A DNA stretch of 64,000 nucleotides from Alphaproteobacteria bacterium (lineage in GTDB: Bacteria > Pseudomonadota > Alphaproteobacteria > Caulobacterales > Maricaulaceae): contig JAAEZM010000001.1 in assembly GCA_018222865.1 (NCBI GenBank), forward strand, positions 415,747 to 479,746. The letters are read 5' to 3'. This document shows positions 48,185-54,705 of this stretch, piece by piece. The notes under the pieces were generated by a model. The model did no database searches, was not told the origin of the DNA, and was given only the letters and a program-made list of their open reading frames with translations. Each line of letters begins with the position of its first letter. Position 1 is the first letter of the stretch. The position numbers were made by a program, and so were the translations under genes.

Positions 48185-49549
48185 CTAAACATAGGCAATA
48201 TCATCATCGCCGGGTTTATTGGCTCGATTACGAATATCCACCGGTGTGAATTTTTTAGGCGGCGAGGGCTGTTGCTGGTCATCCGCCAGAAGACTCCCAG
48301 AAAACAGACGCACACCAGCGGCGATACCAGCATCAAGATAGCCCTGTGTCTGGACGCCTTCGAGCTGAACACCCGCCCCAAGCTGATTGGCAATCTCCAC
48401 AAGCGATAAAAGACTGCCGACCGCTTCATCCGTTGGCTCTTTCGACGCCAGCCGCTCTGGCAGAGCTGTCGCGAAGACAGAGACTCCACAGCTCTCGAAG
48501 CGACGCAAATCCCAGCTTCGCTCATAAACAAGCTCCGCCACGATCAGCGAACCAAAGTGCCGCATCGAACGGAAAACTTCCTGCATCTGACCGATCGGAG
48601 CGCCTTCTGGAATTGACGCGACCCGCAATTGGAAGAAGCGACGAATACGCTGCGGCACCGCCTGCAAAAGCGAGAAATAGTCCATCCTCTCAGATATCGC
48701 GGTGAGCGTCTCATAGTGCACGGGAATGACGACAGAACAGCTACCGCCCGTCGCAAAGACGGATTGAAAGCCCCGCTGTGCGGCCATGGCGACTTCACGA
48801 TCAAGATCACGCAGGCGCGCCTTCTCGTCTTCCCCCGTCAGCGTTTCACGACCATAGACCCAACCGGAACCGGTATAGCGCCGTGCCAGGCTGGTATTGT
48901 GTACAAACCGCCCCGCACTGGCATCCCAGACCGGCCGGAAGATCACATCATCCCAAGACCGCGGAGGCTCCGCTTCATCTGGCCAGTCCGGCGCGGCGCT
49001 CTCAGGCTTCTTCTCCGTGCGCTTCTCAATGTCCTTCCACGCCGCGGCCGCCTTCTCCGCCGCTTCTTCATGGGTTTCCGGCTGCGGCTCCACCTCGTAT
49101 TCCGCCTCATCCTCGACCTGGCTTTCCGCCATCAGGGTCAGGAACTCATCTGTCGGCACACGACGGGCTTCAGCAGCAACACGAAGTTTCTCGAGATTTT
49201 TTTCACCCAGAAAGAAGGCGTTTAACTCATCCTGGATGTCGCAAACTCGCGCTTCGGCCTCCACACCCCCCAACTCTTTGAAGATGATGAGGAAGCCACC
49301 CTTGACCCTGATAAACACATCATCCTCGTCGAGACGCTTCTCGATGAAATGTCCACTGACTTCATAGGTTTTCGCGCGGATCTGTGGCCATTGCCGCCCC
49401 GCCTCGGACCGGATGTCATCTAGATTCAGAAACTGGAACTGGCCCATCTCGACGGCTGTCTTACCAGCGAGGGCTTTTTTCAGTTTCTGTTTGAGCTCGG
49501 GCGACATCGTGTCGGCTACCTCATCAATCCGGAAGGGCCGTTCAGGCAT
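48185..49549 (-). CDS. Degenerate EAL-domain protein, probably non-catalytic
   Basis: 454 residues from ATG 49549 (a longer frame begins at 49582 and ATG 49507 is also possible). The C-terminal about 230 residues resemble an EAL phosphodiesterase fold, with VQLEGVQTQGYLDAGIAAGVRLFSGSLL recalling the Q-G-x-x-x-x-x-P end of that domain. The EAL signature and metal ligands are not recognisable. The N-terminal part has RVKGGFLIIF, which may be a relic of a GGDEF core. It probably binds rather than cleaves cyclic-di-GMP, or has a protein-interaction role. Follows the hybrid kinase region on the same strand. Confidence 0.6.
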   Translation of the reverse strand: MPERPFRIDEVADTMSPELKQKLKKALAGKTAVEMGQFQFLNLDDIRSEAGRQWPQIRAKTYEVSGHFIEKRLDEDDVFIRVKGGFLIIFKELGGVEAEARVCDIQDELNAFFLGEKNLEKLRVAAEARRVPTDEFLTLMAESQVEDEAEYEVEPQPETHEEAAEKAAAAWKDIEKRTEKKPESAAPDWPDEAEPPRSWDDVIFRPVWDASAGRFVHNTSLARRYTGSGWVYGRETLTGEDEKARLRDLDREVAMAAQRGFQSVFATGGSCSVVIPVHYETLTAISERMDYFSLLQAVPQRIRRFFQLRVASIPEGAPIGQMQEVFRSMRHFGSLIVAELVYERSWDLRRFESCGVSVFATALPERLASKEPTDEAVGSLLSLVEIANQLGAGVQLEGVQTQGYLDAGIAAGVRLFSGSLLADDQQQPSPPKKFTPVDIRNRANKPGDDDIAYV

Positions 49550-49621
49550 GACAGGATGAACCGGGCACCCGGGGATTCGCAATCAAAGATTTGACCTTAG
49601 CGCAGCTTTCCCCTTGCCCCG

Positions 49622-50068
49622 CTATCGCGTCGTCGCGGCAATAGAGCCATCAAGGGACAACGCCCCGCCGCCGCGCACAAAGAGATAGAAGGCAACAGCT
49701 GAGAAAACCAGCGCCGAGGTCCAATTCTCCGGGCCAATCCAGCTCATATAGGCCAAACTCGCCGCAAAGAGCGTCAGGCCGACAATGCGGGTCATGAACC
49801 CGGCCACCAGGAGCGCGGCCGTAAAATGAGCTCCCCAGACGGCGAGCTGTGCCAGAAACGGCGCCGGCAATAACGGCACGTCCCAATAATCCGCAGCGAT
49901 GACCAATTCAGGAACCACGCCGGGCCAGGCTTCGGCGTTTGCGCGCCCCCATCCCCATAGGCCGGGAACGAGCGCTGCCCGCATGACCGCGCCAAGTATC
50001 CAGTCTGGAATCAATCGATCAGCGATGATCTTGCCGTCCGAACGGGACGAGCGAGGACTGTTGAACAT
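49622..50068 (-). CDS. DoxX-family membrane protein in the bufferin cluster
   Basis: 148 residues from ATG 50068, selected because GGGGGGAAGA directly precedes it. Four hydrophobic segments and the DoxX-like pattern LAVWGAHFTAALLVAGFMTRIVGLTL. It is the last gene of the buf run, 68 bases after the first DoxX gene. DoxX proteins in such clusters are thought to help with copper or redox handling in the membrane. A second DoxX is an addition to the common four-gene layout. Confidence 0.8.
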   Translation of the reverse strand: MFNSPRSSRSDGKIIADRLIPDWILGAVMRAALVPGLWGWGRANAEAWPGVVPELVIAADYWDVPLLPAPFLAQLAVWGAHFTAALLVAGFMTRIVGLTLFAASLAYMSWIGPENWTSALVFSAVAFYLFVRGGGALSLDGSIAATTR

Positions 50069-50136
50069 TCTTCCCCCCGGAATACGCAGCCGCTCGGTTA
50101 ATGCCCGACCGGTCCCGATGGGGCAATGCAATGCGC

Positions 50137-50676
50137 CTAAGCGGCGAATCTATTTCCAAGAGTGTGATCGATTGACAACCGCCCCGGACCGTTCACCACC
50201 AGATATCCGGCCATGACCATCCAGAGGGCATGCGATCCCCACCACGCTTCCGGATAGACGAAGAACTGGATCACCAGCGTCATCACAATCAGTCCCAGAG
50301 CCGCAAAACGGGTCATGAGACCAAGCAGCAGCAAGATAGGCAGGATGAACTCGCCTATCGTAGCCATCCATGCCGCAGCACTGGCCGGGAGCAAAGGAAG
50401 GGCGAACTCGGCAGCGAATTGATGCAGCGTGGCTGCTTTCAGCTCCAAGGGAAGTACAGGCAGCTTCACATGCGAGCGTTCAATCGCGAAGTCATTGATA
50501 TACTCCGTATAATTGAACACCCCAAAAGTCTCGACCTTGGTGAGGAGCGAACGCCAGAACACACCCGCGAGCGTCAACCGGGCGAGCAAGGGCAAGAGCG
50601 AGCCACCGAAGAGCGTTGTGAGCGTCCGGAAGAATTGCGTGTAAGCGGTGTGAAGGGATTGAATCGGGCGGTTCAT
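50137..50676 (-). CDS. DoxX-family membrane protein (BufD-like)
   Basis: 179 residues with four hydrophobic segments; GEFILPILLLLGLMTRFAALGLIVMTLV is the DoxX hallmark. A periplasmic-side loop between helices one and two is long (about 40 residues, VFNYTEYINDF). The start overlaps the stop of the DUF2063 gene (ATGA, 50673-50676), so the two are translationally coupled within the bufferin operon. Confidence 0.85.
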   Translation of the reverse strand: MNRPIQSLHTAYTQFFRTLTTLFGGSLLPLLARLTLAGVFWRSLLTKVETFGVFNYTEYINDFAIERSHVKLPVLPLELKAATLHQFAAEFALPLLPASAAAWMATIGEFILPILLLLGLMTRFAALGLIVMTLVIQFFVYPEAWWGSHALWMVMAGYLVVNGPGRLSIDHTLGNRFAA

Positions 50677-51440
50677 AACAGGTCTTTCGGGTCTAGACTC
50701 ACGAAAAGGCCATTGCTGAGCCCGTGTCCGAAGACACGACCCGCAAAGCGTTCATCAGTATCAGGCCCAGCGCGGTCCAGCGCTTGGCCAAGGGGTTGGG
50801 GCGTAGCGAGTGCGTCCAGGAAGACAGCATGCTCGGCGGTAACAATTTCATGGCAGACCTGCCCGCGGTGACGCCAGATCAGGATGTTCTGTCGCCCCGG
50901 CACAAGACGCGTCTCCTCTGGCACACGCCGGGCGCGGCTTGCCAGCCAGAAGTCGAAGAGTGACAGCTCGCATTCAACACGTCGCAATGTCGGGTGGAGC
51001 CCCAGCAATAATGCAGGCAGATCGGAAGGGGCGAGTTCTGCGACCCGAGCGGCATTGAGCGGTTCGCAATCCGCACCATGATGGGCTTCCAGCCAAGCTC
51101 GATCGAGACGCGCGATATCTGGCAGGTAGGGCAATCGGGATGCGGGCGCATAGGTCGAAATGAAGCTGTCAAACCCGTCGCCATAAAGCGTCATGGTCTG
51201 ATCAACCGGCGGAGACGCCTCCCAGAAAGCCTTCGCCAATGGCGAAAAGAAGTTCTCGCCGACGATATGGTTCACGGACGGGTAGGCCGCCCTGAGCGCT
51301 TCGATAGCACTACGCACGACATTATTACGATAAACGGCGAAACGCTCTGCGGCGCCAGGCATATCCAGCCACGCGTTCAACCCGTCTGTCGTGCCGCTCT
51401 GAAGCGCTTCAGCAAAAGCATTATGGAAGGTTTCAGACAT
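50673..51440 (-). CDS. bufC: DUF2063 bufferin maturation partner, BufC-like
   Basis: 255 residues from ATG 51440, which overlaps bufB by 8 bases. DUF2063-type N-terminal domain (FAVYRNNVVRSAIEALRAAYP, VGENFF, AKAFWEASPP, PYLPDIARLDRAW), followed by a winged-helix-like C-terminal region. In known MNIO systems this family recognises the precursor peptide and presents it to the DUF692 enzyme. Overlaps with both neighbours show that bufB-C-D are translated together. Confidence 0.9.
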   Translation of the reverse strand: MSETFHNAFAEALQSGTTDGLNAWLDMPGAAERFAVYRNNVVRSAIEALRAAYPSVNHIVGENFFSPLAKAFWEASPPVDQTMTLYGDGFDSFISTYAPASRLPYLPDIARLDRAWLEAHHGADCEPLNAARVAELAPSDLPALLLGLHPTLRRVECELSLFDFWLASRARRVPEETRLVPGRQNILIWRHRGQVCHEIVTAEHAVFLDALATPQPLGQALDRAGPDTDERFAGRVFGHGLSNGLFVSLDPKDLL

Positions 51441-52317
51441 GCTGCACTGCTCGCGACTGGACACTAGCAAGCAGGCGCGCAGCCTCGTCTCGCTCTTCGC
51501 GGATCACATTATAGGCTGGAATATTGGTATCGCGCTCGATCAGGGTCGGCCTCGCACCAATCCGTTCAATCAGTTTCGCATAAAGCGTCCAAACCGCGAC
51601 TGTTACAGCGGCCCCGTGGGTGTCGATCAGCAAGGCTTCGCCAAGGGCCTCGTCAGCCTCATGGCCGGCCAGGTGAATTTCTCCGATCGCCTCTGCTGGG
51701 AGCGCTTCGAGATAGGCAATGGGATCGTAGGCGAGATTATGGGCGCTGACATGGACATTATTGACATCGACCAGCAGGCCGCAACCGGTGCGCCGGACCG
51801 TCTCACTCAGGAAATCGGCCTCGCTGATCTCTTCTCGCATCGGGATATAGCGAGAAGGGTTTTCGATCAGGATTTTCCGTCCCAGCACCTCTTGGACGCG
51901 GTCGACATGGCGACAGAAATGGTCGAGGGCTTCCTGCGTCATCGGCGTGGGCAGAAGGTCGTTGAAATAGACACCGGAGTGCACACTCCAGGCCAGATGC
52001 TCAGAAACCAGCGCAGGCTGGTAACGATCGACCAAGGCCTTTAGCCGCGCAAGATGCCGCTCATTCGGAGGCTCTGCCCCACCGAGTGACAGGCCAACTC
52101 CATGCATGGACATGTCATGATCGGAGCGGATCGCCTCCAGCCAGGCCAGCCTCGGCCCGCCATCGGCCATGTAGTTTTCCGGATGCACTTCAAACCAAAG
52201 ACCGTCCGTCCGGTCCTCCAGAGCCTCTCGATAGTGCTCTGGTTTGAGACCAAGCCCAGCAGTGGGGGATAAGGGCGCTTGGGGCAAGACGAACGGCCTC
52301 CGGTTTCGGGAGGCCAT
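51433..52317 (-). CDS. bufB: DUF692 multinuclear iron oxidative enzyme, BufB-like
   Basis: 294 residues, TIM-barrel DUF692 (MNIO) family. The iron-binding His/Asp/Glu motifs are seen in order: FEVHPENYM, MSMHGVGLSLGG, VSEHLAWSVH, LIENPSRY, VDVNNVHVSAHN, IHLAGH, DTHGA and PTLIERD. In bufferin pathways this enzyme converts cysteines of the precursor into oxidised heterocycles (thiooxazoles). It lies 29 bases after the bufA-like gene, whose product is the presumed substrate. Confidence 0.93.
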   Translation of the reverse strand: MASRNRRPFVLPQAPLSPTAGLGLKPEHYREALEDRTDGLWFEVHPENYMADGGPRLAWLEAIRSDHDMSMHGVGLSLGGAEPPNERHLARLKALVDRYQPALVSEHLAWSVHSGVYFNDLLPTPMTQEALDHFCRHVDRVQEVLGRKILIENPSRYIPMREEISEADFLSETVRRTGCGLLVDVNNVHVSAHNLAYDPIAYLEALPAEAIGEIHLAGHEADEALGEALLIDTHGAAVTVAVWTLYAKLIERIGARPTLIERDTNIPAYNVIREERDEAARLLASVQSRAVQHV

Positions 52318-52346
52318 GCAGGCCTCCCATGCAACGGGTCGGTCGC

Positions 52347-52631
52347 TTACGGACGCTCAACCGGCTCGAGCGAACCGTTTCCGTACGGTGTTTCAATCGT
52401 CGTGCAGGTGCCCTCTGGGACATAGGTCCAGGCATTACCCTGGAAGTCGGCCGTAGACGTGCCAGCGCAGGACGTGCCGGGGCCCGCTGCGCAGTCGTTT
52501 TCGCCCGCGAGGGCGATACCGTAACACTGCTCCATTTCGCCATCGACAGTGGCAGCATTGGCAGCGGCCGAAGCCAGTGACAGGGCCAGGGCGGACGCGG
52601 CAAGAACCGCCATTTGCTTTTCAGCTTTCAT
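52347..52631 (-). CDS. bufA: Bufferin-type RiPP precursor, DUF2282
   Basis: 94 residues. A cleavable signal peptide (through AAANAA, about residue 27) directs it to the periplasm. The mature part has exactly four Cys, in [22 protein letters not shown] and EGTCTTI, the DUF2282 pattern. The middle two are the ones modified in characterised bufferins. A GPGT insert replaces the more common short spacer before the third Cys. RBS AGGAGAG precedes ATG 52631. Expected role: copper-binding peptide protecting the envelope. Confidence 0.92.
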
Positions 52632-52745
52632 CTCACAACTCTCCTCGATGAAGGTCCGGCGAAAAGGGGGGAAAGGGCCGGATCCGATGACCGAAAGCTA
52701 GCCGAGAAAGCTCAAGAGAAGCCAATAACGAGGCCCTGCCGCGCA

Positions 52746-52761
52746 ATAACCTTCGTGTTAT
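52746..52761. promoter_or_regulatory. Small inverted repeat upstream of the buf operon
   Basis: ATAAC and GTTAT flank CTTCGT about 115-130 bases upstream of the bufA start and just after the phosphatase stop. It could be an operator or a weak hairpin; no ECF sigma factor or known copper regulator is adjacent. Confidence 0.3.
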
Positions 52762-52778
52762 CGCGTGTCAGCGACGCG

Positions 52779-53924
52779 TTAGTTATTCGTGAGCGCGTCA
52801 ATATCGATGGATTGAGATCGAACCGTTTCGCCGGCGTCATCGCGAATTTCCAGAGCGATGGAGCGATCCTCCCAATCGATCTCGATGGCACCGAAGTTTA
52901 CAGGTGCATACATCTCACCAATACGATTTGGGCCCGGCTCATTGTTTTCGTCGCGATAAGACATGTTCAGCGCGGATGAGGTGATTTCATAAAGCGGGTA
53001 GCCGATCACATCATCGCGGAGATACAGGCCGGAAGAATGGCGATCGCCAGAGACAAGGACCACGCCTTCCGCACCGGACCGGGAAATCGTTTCGTAGAAA
53101 CGCTCGCGCTCATGCGGCATGGTGCGCCAGGCCTCCCAGCCATGCCCATCGGCGATCACCTGGATGGAGGAGACAACCAGGCGCAAATCCGCCGGCTCAC
53201 TCAGAACCTCTTCAAACCAGGCCCATTGTGTATCACCCAGCATTGAAACACTGGTATCCTCCGTCGGGATATAGCGCTCCATACCGACCGCACCGCGATC
53301 AGGCGTCCGTGTCAAATCGCCCCGGAAATAACGTGTATCCAGAAGGATGATCTGCACCCGCTGGCCCTCCGGACCATAGGTGCGGCTGGTGTAGATACCC
53401 GGGCGAGACCGACGCTCATCATCACTGGCGACACCCCAGAATTCGAGGAATAGCTCTTCGGCGAAACCCTTGTAGGGGAAGCGCTCACCCATATCATTCA
53501 TGCCATAATCATGATCATCCCAGGTCGCGAGCATGGGGGTTGTATCCCGCAGCGTCTGGAAGGGTTCGGCGGCGGCCAGCTCTGAATAGGCCGTGCGCAG
53601 CTCCGTCAGGGTCGCATCCCAAGAGTATGCGTCGCCATAGACATTATCGCCAGTATAGATGAAGAGGTCGCCATTCTGGCCGGCGATCGTGTCGAGAATA
53701 TCGAGCGGTCGTTCCGTGCTGTGGCAGGATCCAAAGAAAATCGATTCCAGAACCGCATCGGCAGCCGGCTCACCCGCACCGGCTGGTGCGCGCGGGCGCT
53801 CCACATCCAACTGGGCATAGTAAGGCGCCAGCGCGTCCACAACATTGTCCGGCGTTTGAACGGTCTGTTCGCCCTGACACGCGGCAATGACGAGTACGGA
53901 TGCGGTTATAAGAAGCTGGCGCAT
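52779..53924 (-). CDS. PhoD-like alkaline phosphatase/phosphodiesterase lipoprotein
   Basis: 381 residues from ATG 53924, chosen because AGGGGA sits 6 bases upstream and gives a lipoprotein signal with lipobox VIAAC. The PhoD-type metallophosphatase core shows FGSCHS, YTGDNVYGD, ATWDDHDYGMND, LLDTRYFRGD and VSGDRHSSG, covering the metal ligands. It hydrolyses phosphomonoesters or diesters outside the cytoplasm and may help phosphate scavenging. 147 bases upstream of bufA on the same strand, so cotranscription is possible. Confidence 0.88.
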   Translation of the reverse strand: MRQLLITASVLVIAACQGEQTVQTPDNVVDALAPYYAQLDVERPRAPAGAGEPAADAVLESIFFGSCHSTERPLDILDTIAGQNGDLFIYTGDNVYGDAYSWDATLTELRTAYSELAAAEPFQTLRDTTPMLATWDDHDYGMNDMGERFPYKGFAEELFLEFWGVASDDERRSRPGIYTSRTYGPEGQRVQIILLDTRYFRGDLTRTPDRGAVGMERYIPTEDTSVSMLGDTQWAWFEEVLSEPADLRLVVSSIQVIADGHGWEAWRTMPHERERFYETISRSGAEGVVLVSGDRHSSGLYLRDDVIGYPLYEITSSALNMSYRDENNEPGPNRIGEMYAPVNFGAIEIDWEDRSIALEIRDDAGETVRSQSIDIDALTNN

Positions 53925-53982
53925 AAGATTTCCCCTGTTTTCACTCGGAGGTATTCCGTTTTTGTGACAGGGGAATGATAGG

Positions 53983-54705
53983 TTATGCAGGTTCGGCAAG
54001 CCGAACAAAACTCATCGGCTGGCCACCAACATCAATCCTCACAATCCGGCGCGTCTCGACATCGACAAAGAAGTCGTTTGCGGGCTCTCCACCGCGTTGT
54101 TCGATACGTATGGTCGTAAACGCTCCGCCAGGTGTTTCGATATCGACGGTTTCGATCGCACTGAAGGTGACGGTCTCTACAGCATTGGACAGGGAAGAAT
54201 ACCAGTCCACCGAAAAGGACTCGCCGGGATCAAGCTCGACTCGGTCTACAAGCATAAAGGTTTGAGCGCGCAGTAGAACACCGCCTGGGAGTGGCGCTTC
54301 GATCGAGCGCTCCTGGGCGTCCTCGCCAGGCCGACTCATCGACATCACCCCATTTGCCGCATCGGAGGTGAAACCGATCTCCCAACGAATACTCGTTTCG
54401 CCGGTATGAAAATCGATACGAACCTCTTGAGGACTCAGACTGTCAGCATTTACCCGAGCCTCGTAAAGCTCGTAAACCTCCTGAGAGGCGAACATCGTGC
54501 GATCCCAGAGGTGCAAATTATCGCCATCGCGATACCAGCCCAGGCGCATAAAACCGTCCGCTTCGCCGTTAAAGAGCATGCCAAGATGGATCTGACCGGC
54601 TTCAAGATCCTCCTCGGTCAGGCGCTCACGCCAGTCAATCGGTTGCGCGAAAACCGCCCCGGAAAAGACCAAGGCCAAGCCAAACGCAGACATTACTTTT
54701 TTCAT
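53983..54705 (-). CDS. Secreted protein of unknown function
   Basis: 240 residues from ATG 54705 (GGGGGCGAAG just upstream). Signal peptide to about residue 20 (GAVFAQ), then an all-beta mature region with DFFVDVETRRIVRIDVGG near the end, which recalls DUF3108-type lipid- or outer-membrane-associated proteins, but the match is weak. Same strand as the phosphatase, 58 bases apart. Confidence 0.6.
   Translation of the reverse strand: MKKVMSAFGLALVFSGAVFAQPIDWRERLTEEDLEAGQIHLGMLFNGEADGFMRLGWYRDGDNLHLWDRTMFASQEVYELYEARVNADSLSPQEVRIDFHTGETSIRWEIGFTSDAANGVMSMSRPGEDAQERSIEAPLPGGVLLRAQTFMLVDRVELDPGESFSVDWYSSLSNAVETVTFSAIETVDIETPGGAFTTIRIEQRGGEPANDFFVDVETRRIVRIDVGGQPMSFVRLAEPA

Follow-up and report, generated by a model that had tools for sequence, protein, structure and literature searches.

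In DUF2282 bufferins, the central pair of the four cysteines is modified and the outer pair is disulphide-bonded (PMC12452194); the modification has been assigned as a 5-thiooxazole and binds copper (PMC13097082). In Caulobacter, where the published form of the sigma-F promoter is GTAACC-N16-CGAA (PMC3511200), inactivation of sigF severely impairs growth in copper (PMC8224329), and for GigT of Cupriavidus it has been proposed that periplasmic Cu(I) is oxidised and that the electrons pass to the quinol pool (PMC10304878). Here we analyse a bufferin gene set, bufA-bufB-bufC-doxX, and the doxD-type gene that follows it, in a stretch of 64,000 nucleotides (the window) from an alphaproteobacterium of the Maricaulaceae (GenBank assembly GCA_018222865.1, contig JAAEZM010000001.1). 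Taken as a whole, the results make it very probable that the locus is a canonical bufferin-1 cassette with an independent doxD-type neighbour, that it is not under sigma-F/NrsF control, and that the candidate operator of a different regulator is a palindrome upstream of bufA.

Two sets of sequences served for comparison. The first holds 61 genomes, that is, the genome of the window (G000) and 60 relatives; 19 of them, G000 included, form the same-genus set, the genus being inferred as Maricaulis. The second consists of 80 named buf loci, some of whose stretches end at contig ends.

The bufferin-1 cassette and its precursor

The gene set is a canonical bufferin-1 cassette and adds one more member to a kind already described. 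It encodes a DUF2282 precursor, a bufferin-type MNIO and a DUF2063 partner of about 250-260 residues, and all four products match their Pfam families above the cut-offs (Table 1). Furthermore, BufB scores 376.5 bits, above the cut-off of 310, with the NCBIfam model NF050167 ('MNIO family bufferin maturase'). The complete bufferin operon announced by an earlier note on this DNA is borne out. The same note had correctly placed all genes on one strand: the four cassette genes and the doxD-type gene are all on the minus strand, the ATG of bufC sits inside bufB with an overlap of 8 bases, and bufC and doxX share the 4 bases ATGA, both overlaps being real by coordinates. Genome-wide, there is a single MNIO match and a single DUF2282 match. 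Two scores weigh against this assignment: BufA passes no NCBIfam cut-off, the best model being BufA2 (23.3 against 60), and the cassette DoxX passes none either, staying below that of HvfX (45.7 against 80). A sequence search of the PDB with BufA returned no match.

BufB residues N186, N187, D232, H234, E261 and D263 are invariant in an alignment of 19 sequences. In our own reading of the motif in PMC13419390, the putative metal-site residues of BufB may be likened to N175/D242/H244 of HvfB. DUF2282 was found in 12 of the 19 same-genus genomes, and the seven others, two of them under 70% complete, gave no match, as would be expected if the cassette were a relic decaying in its own genome too. 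However, the four frames are intact and the catalytic residues and cysteines are conserved, which makes decay very unlikely.

BufA carries a Sec-type signal peptide, as judged by inspection, and four cysteines (Cys36, Cys47, Cys55 and Cys76); together with the DUF2282 match, this agrees with the description in the earlier note. The same cannot be said of its 'variant precursor' with a 'GPGT insert' before the third cysteine. Indeed, the spacing C-x10-C-x7-C-x20-C is the common one among the 79 named bufA genes, in which the loop between the second and third cysteines has 7 residues in 74 cases, 8 in three and 6 in two, and the third and fourth cysteines are 20 residues apart in all 79. GPGT itself occurs in 35 of these genes and G-x-G-T in 72, and the loop of the window, AAGPGTS, is identical in 12 of the named sequences. 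Among the 24 sequences of relatives plus that of the window, a set that overlaps the named one in L100 and L101, GPGT is present in 18 and G-x-G-T in 21. We therefore rejected GPGT as an insert: it is part of a common loop, and the comparison with DUF2282 relatives that had been proposed as a check gave ordinary cysteine spacing. A false lead is thereby removed, since a variant precursor or a doubled DoxX would have drawn chemical and genetic work to an ordinary peptide.

By analogy with the characterised relatives, BufB and BufC would convert the central Cys47 and Cys55 of BufA into copper-binding 5-thiooxazoles, Cys36 and Cys76 would form a disulphide, and BufA, exported by Sec, would buffer periplasmic copper. 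DoxX would act in the membrane, putatively in a quinone-linked redox step. The cassette DoxX carries R33, S43, K47, E109, R123 and D170, which are typical of bufferin DoxX. Across DoxX proteins of bufferin clusters, these charged or polar positions are invariant or nearly so and lie in or near predicted helices; it is possible that they make up a functional site. The AlphaFold2 model of the protein is of high confidence (mean pLDDT 94.3). A Foldseek search with it gave 50 matches, none with an E-value below 1.0; the best, a vitamin K-dependent gamma-carboxylase (E 1.0, probability 0.80, TMq 0.41), is a lead only. We took the 34 cyclin chains that a PDB sequence search returned for DoxX, all at E 0.009 or worse, as chance matches.

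Two relatives show other arrangements of bufA-like genes. G025 has a second DUF2282 gene (L039:6974-7453) whose product, of 159 residues, is lipoprotein-like (LMACS near the N-terminus) and has a long Asp/Ala/Met-rich linker ahead of the bufferin domain; the 12-kb stretch around it gave no match to bufB, bufC or DoxX. In G043 (L048:6323-8267), two bufA-like genes flank a DoxX-like gene, with a distant MNIO (38% identity) and an NrsF gene near.

The doxD-type gene, a probable older neighbour

The earlier note had counted two DoxX genes. The first stands (56.1 bits); the last fails the Pfam DoxX cut-off (19.4 against 23.6 bits) and passes that of DoxD, with a match that spans the C-terminal part only. 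Passing DoxD is not specific for the last gene, because the cassette DoxX passes both models (DoxX 56.1, DoxD 29.9); it is the tree and the residues that separate the two. The maximum-likelihood tree unites all 22 doxD-type rows in a single clade (support 100/100), apart from the DoxX proteins of Maricaulis. All 56 bufferin DoxX rows, two of them duplicates, have E109 and S43, and 55 have K47, whereas none of the three is found in any of the 22 doxD-type rows, that of the window among them; R33, G119, R123 and D170 are kept in all 22. The E109/K47/S43 set is thus a usable marker for DoxX of bufferin clusters. A structural model of the doxD-type protein, built from only 3 input sequences, was too poor for use (mean pLDDT 60.5). 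As for its start, an ATG at 50068 follows the ribosome site GGGGGGAAG; the list of open reading frames has a TTG at 50131.

The gene keeps its locus independently of the cassette. It is present in 18 of the 19 same-genus genomes, the sole miss being G012, which is 65% complete, and in all 18 loci it is followed by a gene for a protein of 465 residues and by sucC (after a gap of about 1 kb in G009). The buf cassette stands directly before it in ten genomes (G000, G002, G003, G004, G005, G006, G008, G010, G014 and G016), lies elsewhere in two (G015 and G017), and six that keep the doxD-type gene gave no DUF2282 match (G001, G007, G009, G011, G013 and G018); 8 of the 18 loci are thus without buf genes. 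Over the whole set of 61 genomes, same-genus ones included, the protein was matched in 25 (E 0.001), in G038 and G054 only via the cassette DoxX. Less similar proteins (31-39% identity) are encoded close to sucC in G022, G027, G031 and G032, which belong to four further genera of the family, and no buf genes were seen in the sucC-region stretches examined there, the cassette of G032 being elsewhere. A scan of the genome contig collection with the protein gave 31 stretches, none of them confirmed. The named loci also speak for a single DoxX: 72 of the 80 have one DoxX-family gene, six stretches have none, and the two with a tandem pair are both from Maricaulis. Synteny, tree and residues together show that the doxD-type gene is independent of the cassette. 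It is best read as a long-standing inhabitant of the mdh...sucC region that adjoins the cassette, rather than as a copy of one of its genes.

A recent tandem duplication of doxX, which would account for the adjoining genes and for their 36% identity over 84 C-terminal residues, is largely contradicted by these data. The doxD-type rows fall outside the Maricaulis DoxX rows, the diagnostic residues differ in 22 of 22, and relatives near sucC exist in four other genera; we give this explanation almost no weight, and the 'doubled DoxX' of the earlier note falls with it, the last gene being of another branch of the DoxX superfamily.

A different case can be made for a true five-gene operon, in which the doxD-type protein would be a dedicated second membrane subunit and would assist DoxX in maturing bufferin, oxidising copper or passing electrons to quinones. 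Several observations favour it and weigh against an independent neighbour: the genes lie on one strand, 68 bases apart in the window and 66-87 in the ten genomes (87 in G016), no intrinsic terminator was found between them by a scan that performed at chance level, and the cassette precedes the doxD-type gene in 10 of the 18 genomes. A warning of the tree program, of long branches meeting, also counts against the independent neighbour. Given the shared strand, the short gap and the lack of a detected terminator, buf transcripts may run into the doxD-type gene, and such run-through is possible. However, the gene stays in the six genomes that gave no DUF2282 match and in the two whose cassette is elsewhere, and most named loci have a single DoxX-family gene. 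Moreover, genomes that have buf at the site and genomes that do not share a similar element upstream of the gene. In the 120 bases before it, TTG[CA]-N15/19-[GC]CA[TC] occurs in 17 of 18 same-genus regions, whether or not buf is present (shuffle mean 1.48, maximum 6), and TTCGC...AGG...TTG[CA] in 14 of 18 (shuffle mean 0.04), both patterns having been drawn from the sequences in which they were counted. In the window, the doxX stop codon lies inside this element. The doxD-type gene thus seems to have its own start, and would use its own upstream element apart from the cassette. We consider the five-gene operon improbable.

The presence of buf at this site requires at least 3 changes among the 18 same-genus genomes, and 5 of 1000 label shuffles gave as few; the mapping used a tree built from 12 proteins of the locus, which were unequally represented, and several of its branches have support under 80. 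In two genomes of other genera, G024 and G025, buf likewise stands at this site ahead of sucC, with other genes intervening in G025, a distribution that points to a long-established position and to subsequent losses. The BufB proteins of the relocated cassettes of G015 and G017 group with those of G006 and G008 (87/93) and not with a ten-row clade (95/96), nine rows of which are NrsF-linked; another NrsF-linked row, L107, groups with G025. This variation offers a natural comparison, since close relatives have the cassette at the site, elsewhere beside NrsF, or not at all, and 18 of the 19 keep the doxD-type gene.

Two further genes border the locus. A gene for a PhoD-like phosphatase lies directly upstream of bufA; of the 10 same-genus genomes with buf at the locus, 6 have this gene there too. 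The 465-residue protein, encoded between the doxD-type gene and kinase/sucC, has no Pfam or NCBIfam match at E 0.01; its gene is conserved in the genus and seems doubled in G007, G013, G017 and probably G003.

Control of the cassette and the palindrome before bufA

The earlier note had seen no extracytoplasmic function (ECF) sigma or anti-sigma gene beside the cassette and had supposed that its control may differ from the Caulobacter type. Both points have gained strength. No adjacent gene of either kind was seen, and the genome of the window gave no NrsF match anywhere. NrsF is present in 13 of the 61 genomes, of which two, G015 and G017, are among the 19 of the genus, in both cases close to the relocated buf genes; an ECF sigma gene, recognised by eye, is also beside those of G015. 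Lack of NrsF is not rare, an NrsF-like gene being near 39 of the 80 named loci. Furthermore, no GTAACC-N16-CGAA promoter precedes bufA in the window. With spacers N15/17, the motif is found in none of the 11 same-locus operons (ten of Maricaulis and that of G025), against 4 of 5 NrsF-linked ones (not in G043), and among the named loci in 30 of 38 NrsF-linked against 4 of 39 others, bufA not having been found in 3 of the 80 for these upstream counts. We therefore rejected sigma-F control: without NrsF in the genome and a sigma-F promoter before bufA, the cassette of this Maricaulis lineage appears not to be under sigma-F/NrsF control. UzcR was also considered, and no match to its half-sites, CATTAC-N6-TTAA (PMC8963506), was seen by eye.

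Another motif is conserved upstream. TNAC-N6-GTNA precedes bufA in all 11 same-locus operons (shuffle mean 0.25), TNAC repeats 10-11 bases apart occur in 9 of them, and GTNAYTGG follows the palindrome in 8. These three patterns were drawn from the 11 operons themselves, and the independent sequences therefore carry more weight. The palindrome is present in 4 of the 6 relatives without NrsF beside buf (G028, G032, G034 and G044; shuffle mean 0.15, with 0 of 1000 shuffles reaching 4) and in 8 of 37 named loci without NrsF outside Maricaulis (shuffle mean 1.37, 0 of 1000 reaching 8), all eight being from Alphaproteobacteria (L113, L143, L145, L151, L161, L162, L163 and L175). In contrast, 3 of 38 NrsF-linked named loci have it (shuffle mean 0.99, 73 of 1000 reaching 3). 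In the six other relatives, the TNAC repeat was found twice (G044 and G028) and the GTNAYTGG tail not at all. These counts support a tie between the palindrome and bufferin operons outside sigma-F control, and we infer that it is the candidate operator of another regulator, which would act there before bufA. The half-site spacing in Maricaulis suggests a response regulator of the OmpR/PhoB type. A sigma-70 consensus scan, itself at chance level, gave no promoter at the putative bufA promoter of Table 1.

Instead of an operator, the palindrome could be a chance occurrence, a legacy of common ancestry or a remnant of the 3' end of phoD. The pattern was first drawn from the same sequences, and in the window the array begins inside the end of phoD. 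Other observations also count against an operator. Neither G024, whose bufA is at the same locus, nor G030 has the palindrome before bufA, and it is absent from 29 of the 39 named non-NrsF loci; the shuffles were not corrected for relatedness. A search of the genome for more copies of the array, with at most 2 mismatches, gave 120+117 matches against 133+144 for the reversed control, a second one 3 against 1, and one with fixed spacing 6 against 5, this last having little weight because its spacing does not fit the array of the window. As copies do not exceed the controls, no regulon or regulator backs the palindrome. However, outside the set from which it was drawn it recurs in 4 of the 6 relatives and in 8 of the 37 named loci, it stands in four Maricaulis operons without phoD, and its arms co-vary in several genomes (ATAAC/GTTAT against GTCAC/GTGAC), although not in G002, G004 and G025. 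We judge a non-operator origin unlikely, though less so than either of the alternatives weighed for the doxD-type gene.

With the palindrome as candidate operator, we propose, tentatively and with a confidence just short of even, a second class of bufferin-1 control besides sigma-F/NrsF. A regulator binding TNAC-N6-GTNA would act in Maricaulis, its relatives and other Alphaproteobacteria, a single Maricaulis cassette lineage would come under either system according to its site, and run-through into the doxD-type gene could bring a second membrane protein into the response. The palindrome makes bufferin control outside sigma-F directly testable, and it is the candidate operator that deserves further work. 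Among the papers listed, going by titles and the beginnings of abstracts, with subscription literature, figures and supplements largely outside the scope, we found no publication on the gene arrangement or the palindrome; 'two doxx' occurs nowhere in the text of PMC12452194.

Table 1. Positions of the genes and upstream elements in the window
Feature	Position	Strand	Remarks
Candidate operator region	52722-52783	minus	TNAC half-sites 10-11 bases apart, TAAC-N6-GTTA at 52747-52760, then GTTATTGG
Putative bufA promoter	52697-52725	minus	TTGGCT-N17-GCTAGC, by eye; first hexamer overlaps the last box of the array; weak
bufA	52347-52631	minus	Bufferin-1 (DUF2282) precursor, 94 residues; PF10048, 87.6 bits, E 5.2e-25, cut-off 22.4
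bufB	51433-52317	minus	MNIO bufferin maturase; PF05114 (MbnB_TglH_ChrH), 340.4 bits, E 8.2e-102, cut-off 25
bufC	50673-51440	minus	DUF2063 partner protein (PME type 1), 255 residues; PF09836, 69.2 bits, cut-off 27.2
doxX of the cassette	50137-50676	minus	PF07681 (DoxX), 56.1 bits, cut-off 23.6
Upstream element of the doxD-type gene	50097-50149	minus	TTCGC...AGGNGC...TTGC-N17-CAT; runs into the doxX 3' end
doxD-type gene	49622 to about 50068	minus	PF04173, 30.5 bits, cut-off 22.7; neighbour outside the cassette
PhoD-like phosphatase gene	52779-54008		Directly upstream of bufA
Gene of the 465-residue protein	48185-49582		Between the doxD-type gene and kinase/sucC

Comparison with described systems

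The doxD-type protein resembles archaeal DoxD, the small subunit of thiosulfate:quinone oxidoreductase (PF04173), in that 3 of 5 scanned doxD-type proteins pass the DoxD cut-off. It differs in that the doxD-type relatives of G031 and G022 fail it, and three scanned cassette DoxX proteins pass it as well.

The Hvf/oxazolin (EGKCG) clusters with HvfX share with the cassette the MNIO, DUF2063 and DoxX-type partners, the 5-thiooxazole product being theirs (PMC13097082, PMC13419390). However, the precursor of the window is a DUF2282 protein without EGKCG repeats, and its DoxX is below the HvfX cut-off. The gigPABT cluster of Cupriavidus metallidurans is likewise a four-gene cluster with a DoxX-like gene last; it is induced by copper and gold and forms one operon that ends after gigT, as shown by reverse-transcription PCR (PMC10304878). 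Divergent sigma and anti-sigma genes adjoin it, whereas none were seen beside the cassette of the window.

The cassette also resembles the bufferin-1 operon of Caulobacter crescentus CCNA_03363-03366 (CC3254-3257), which is under sigma-F/NrsF control and where DUF2282, DUF692/MNIO, DUF2063 and DoxX follow in the same order (PMC3511200). There, sigF and nrsF stand beside the operon and the promoter is GTAACC-N16-CGAA; in the window neither was found, and another motif takes the upstream position. The buf operons of G015 and G017 show the same difference within the genus: their bufB groups with Maricaulis rows and one DoxX is beside it, but they lie elsewhere in the genome, with NrsF adjoining and a promoter of the sigma-F type.

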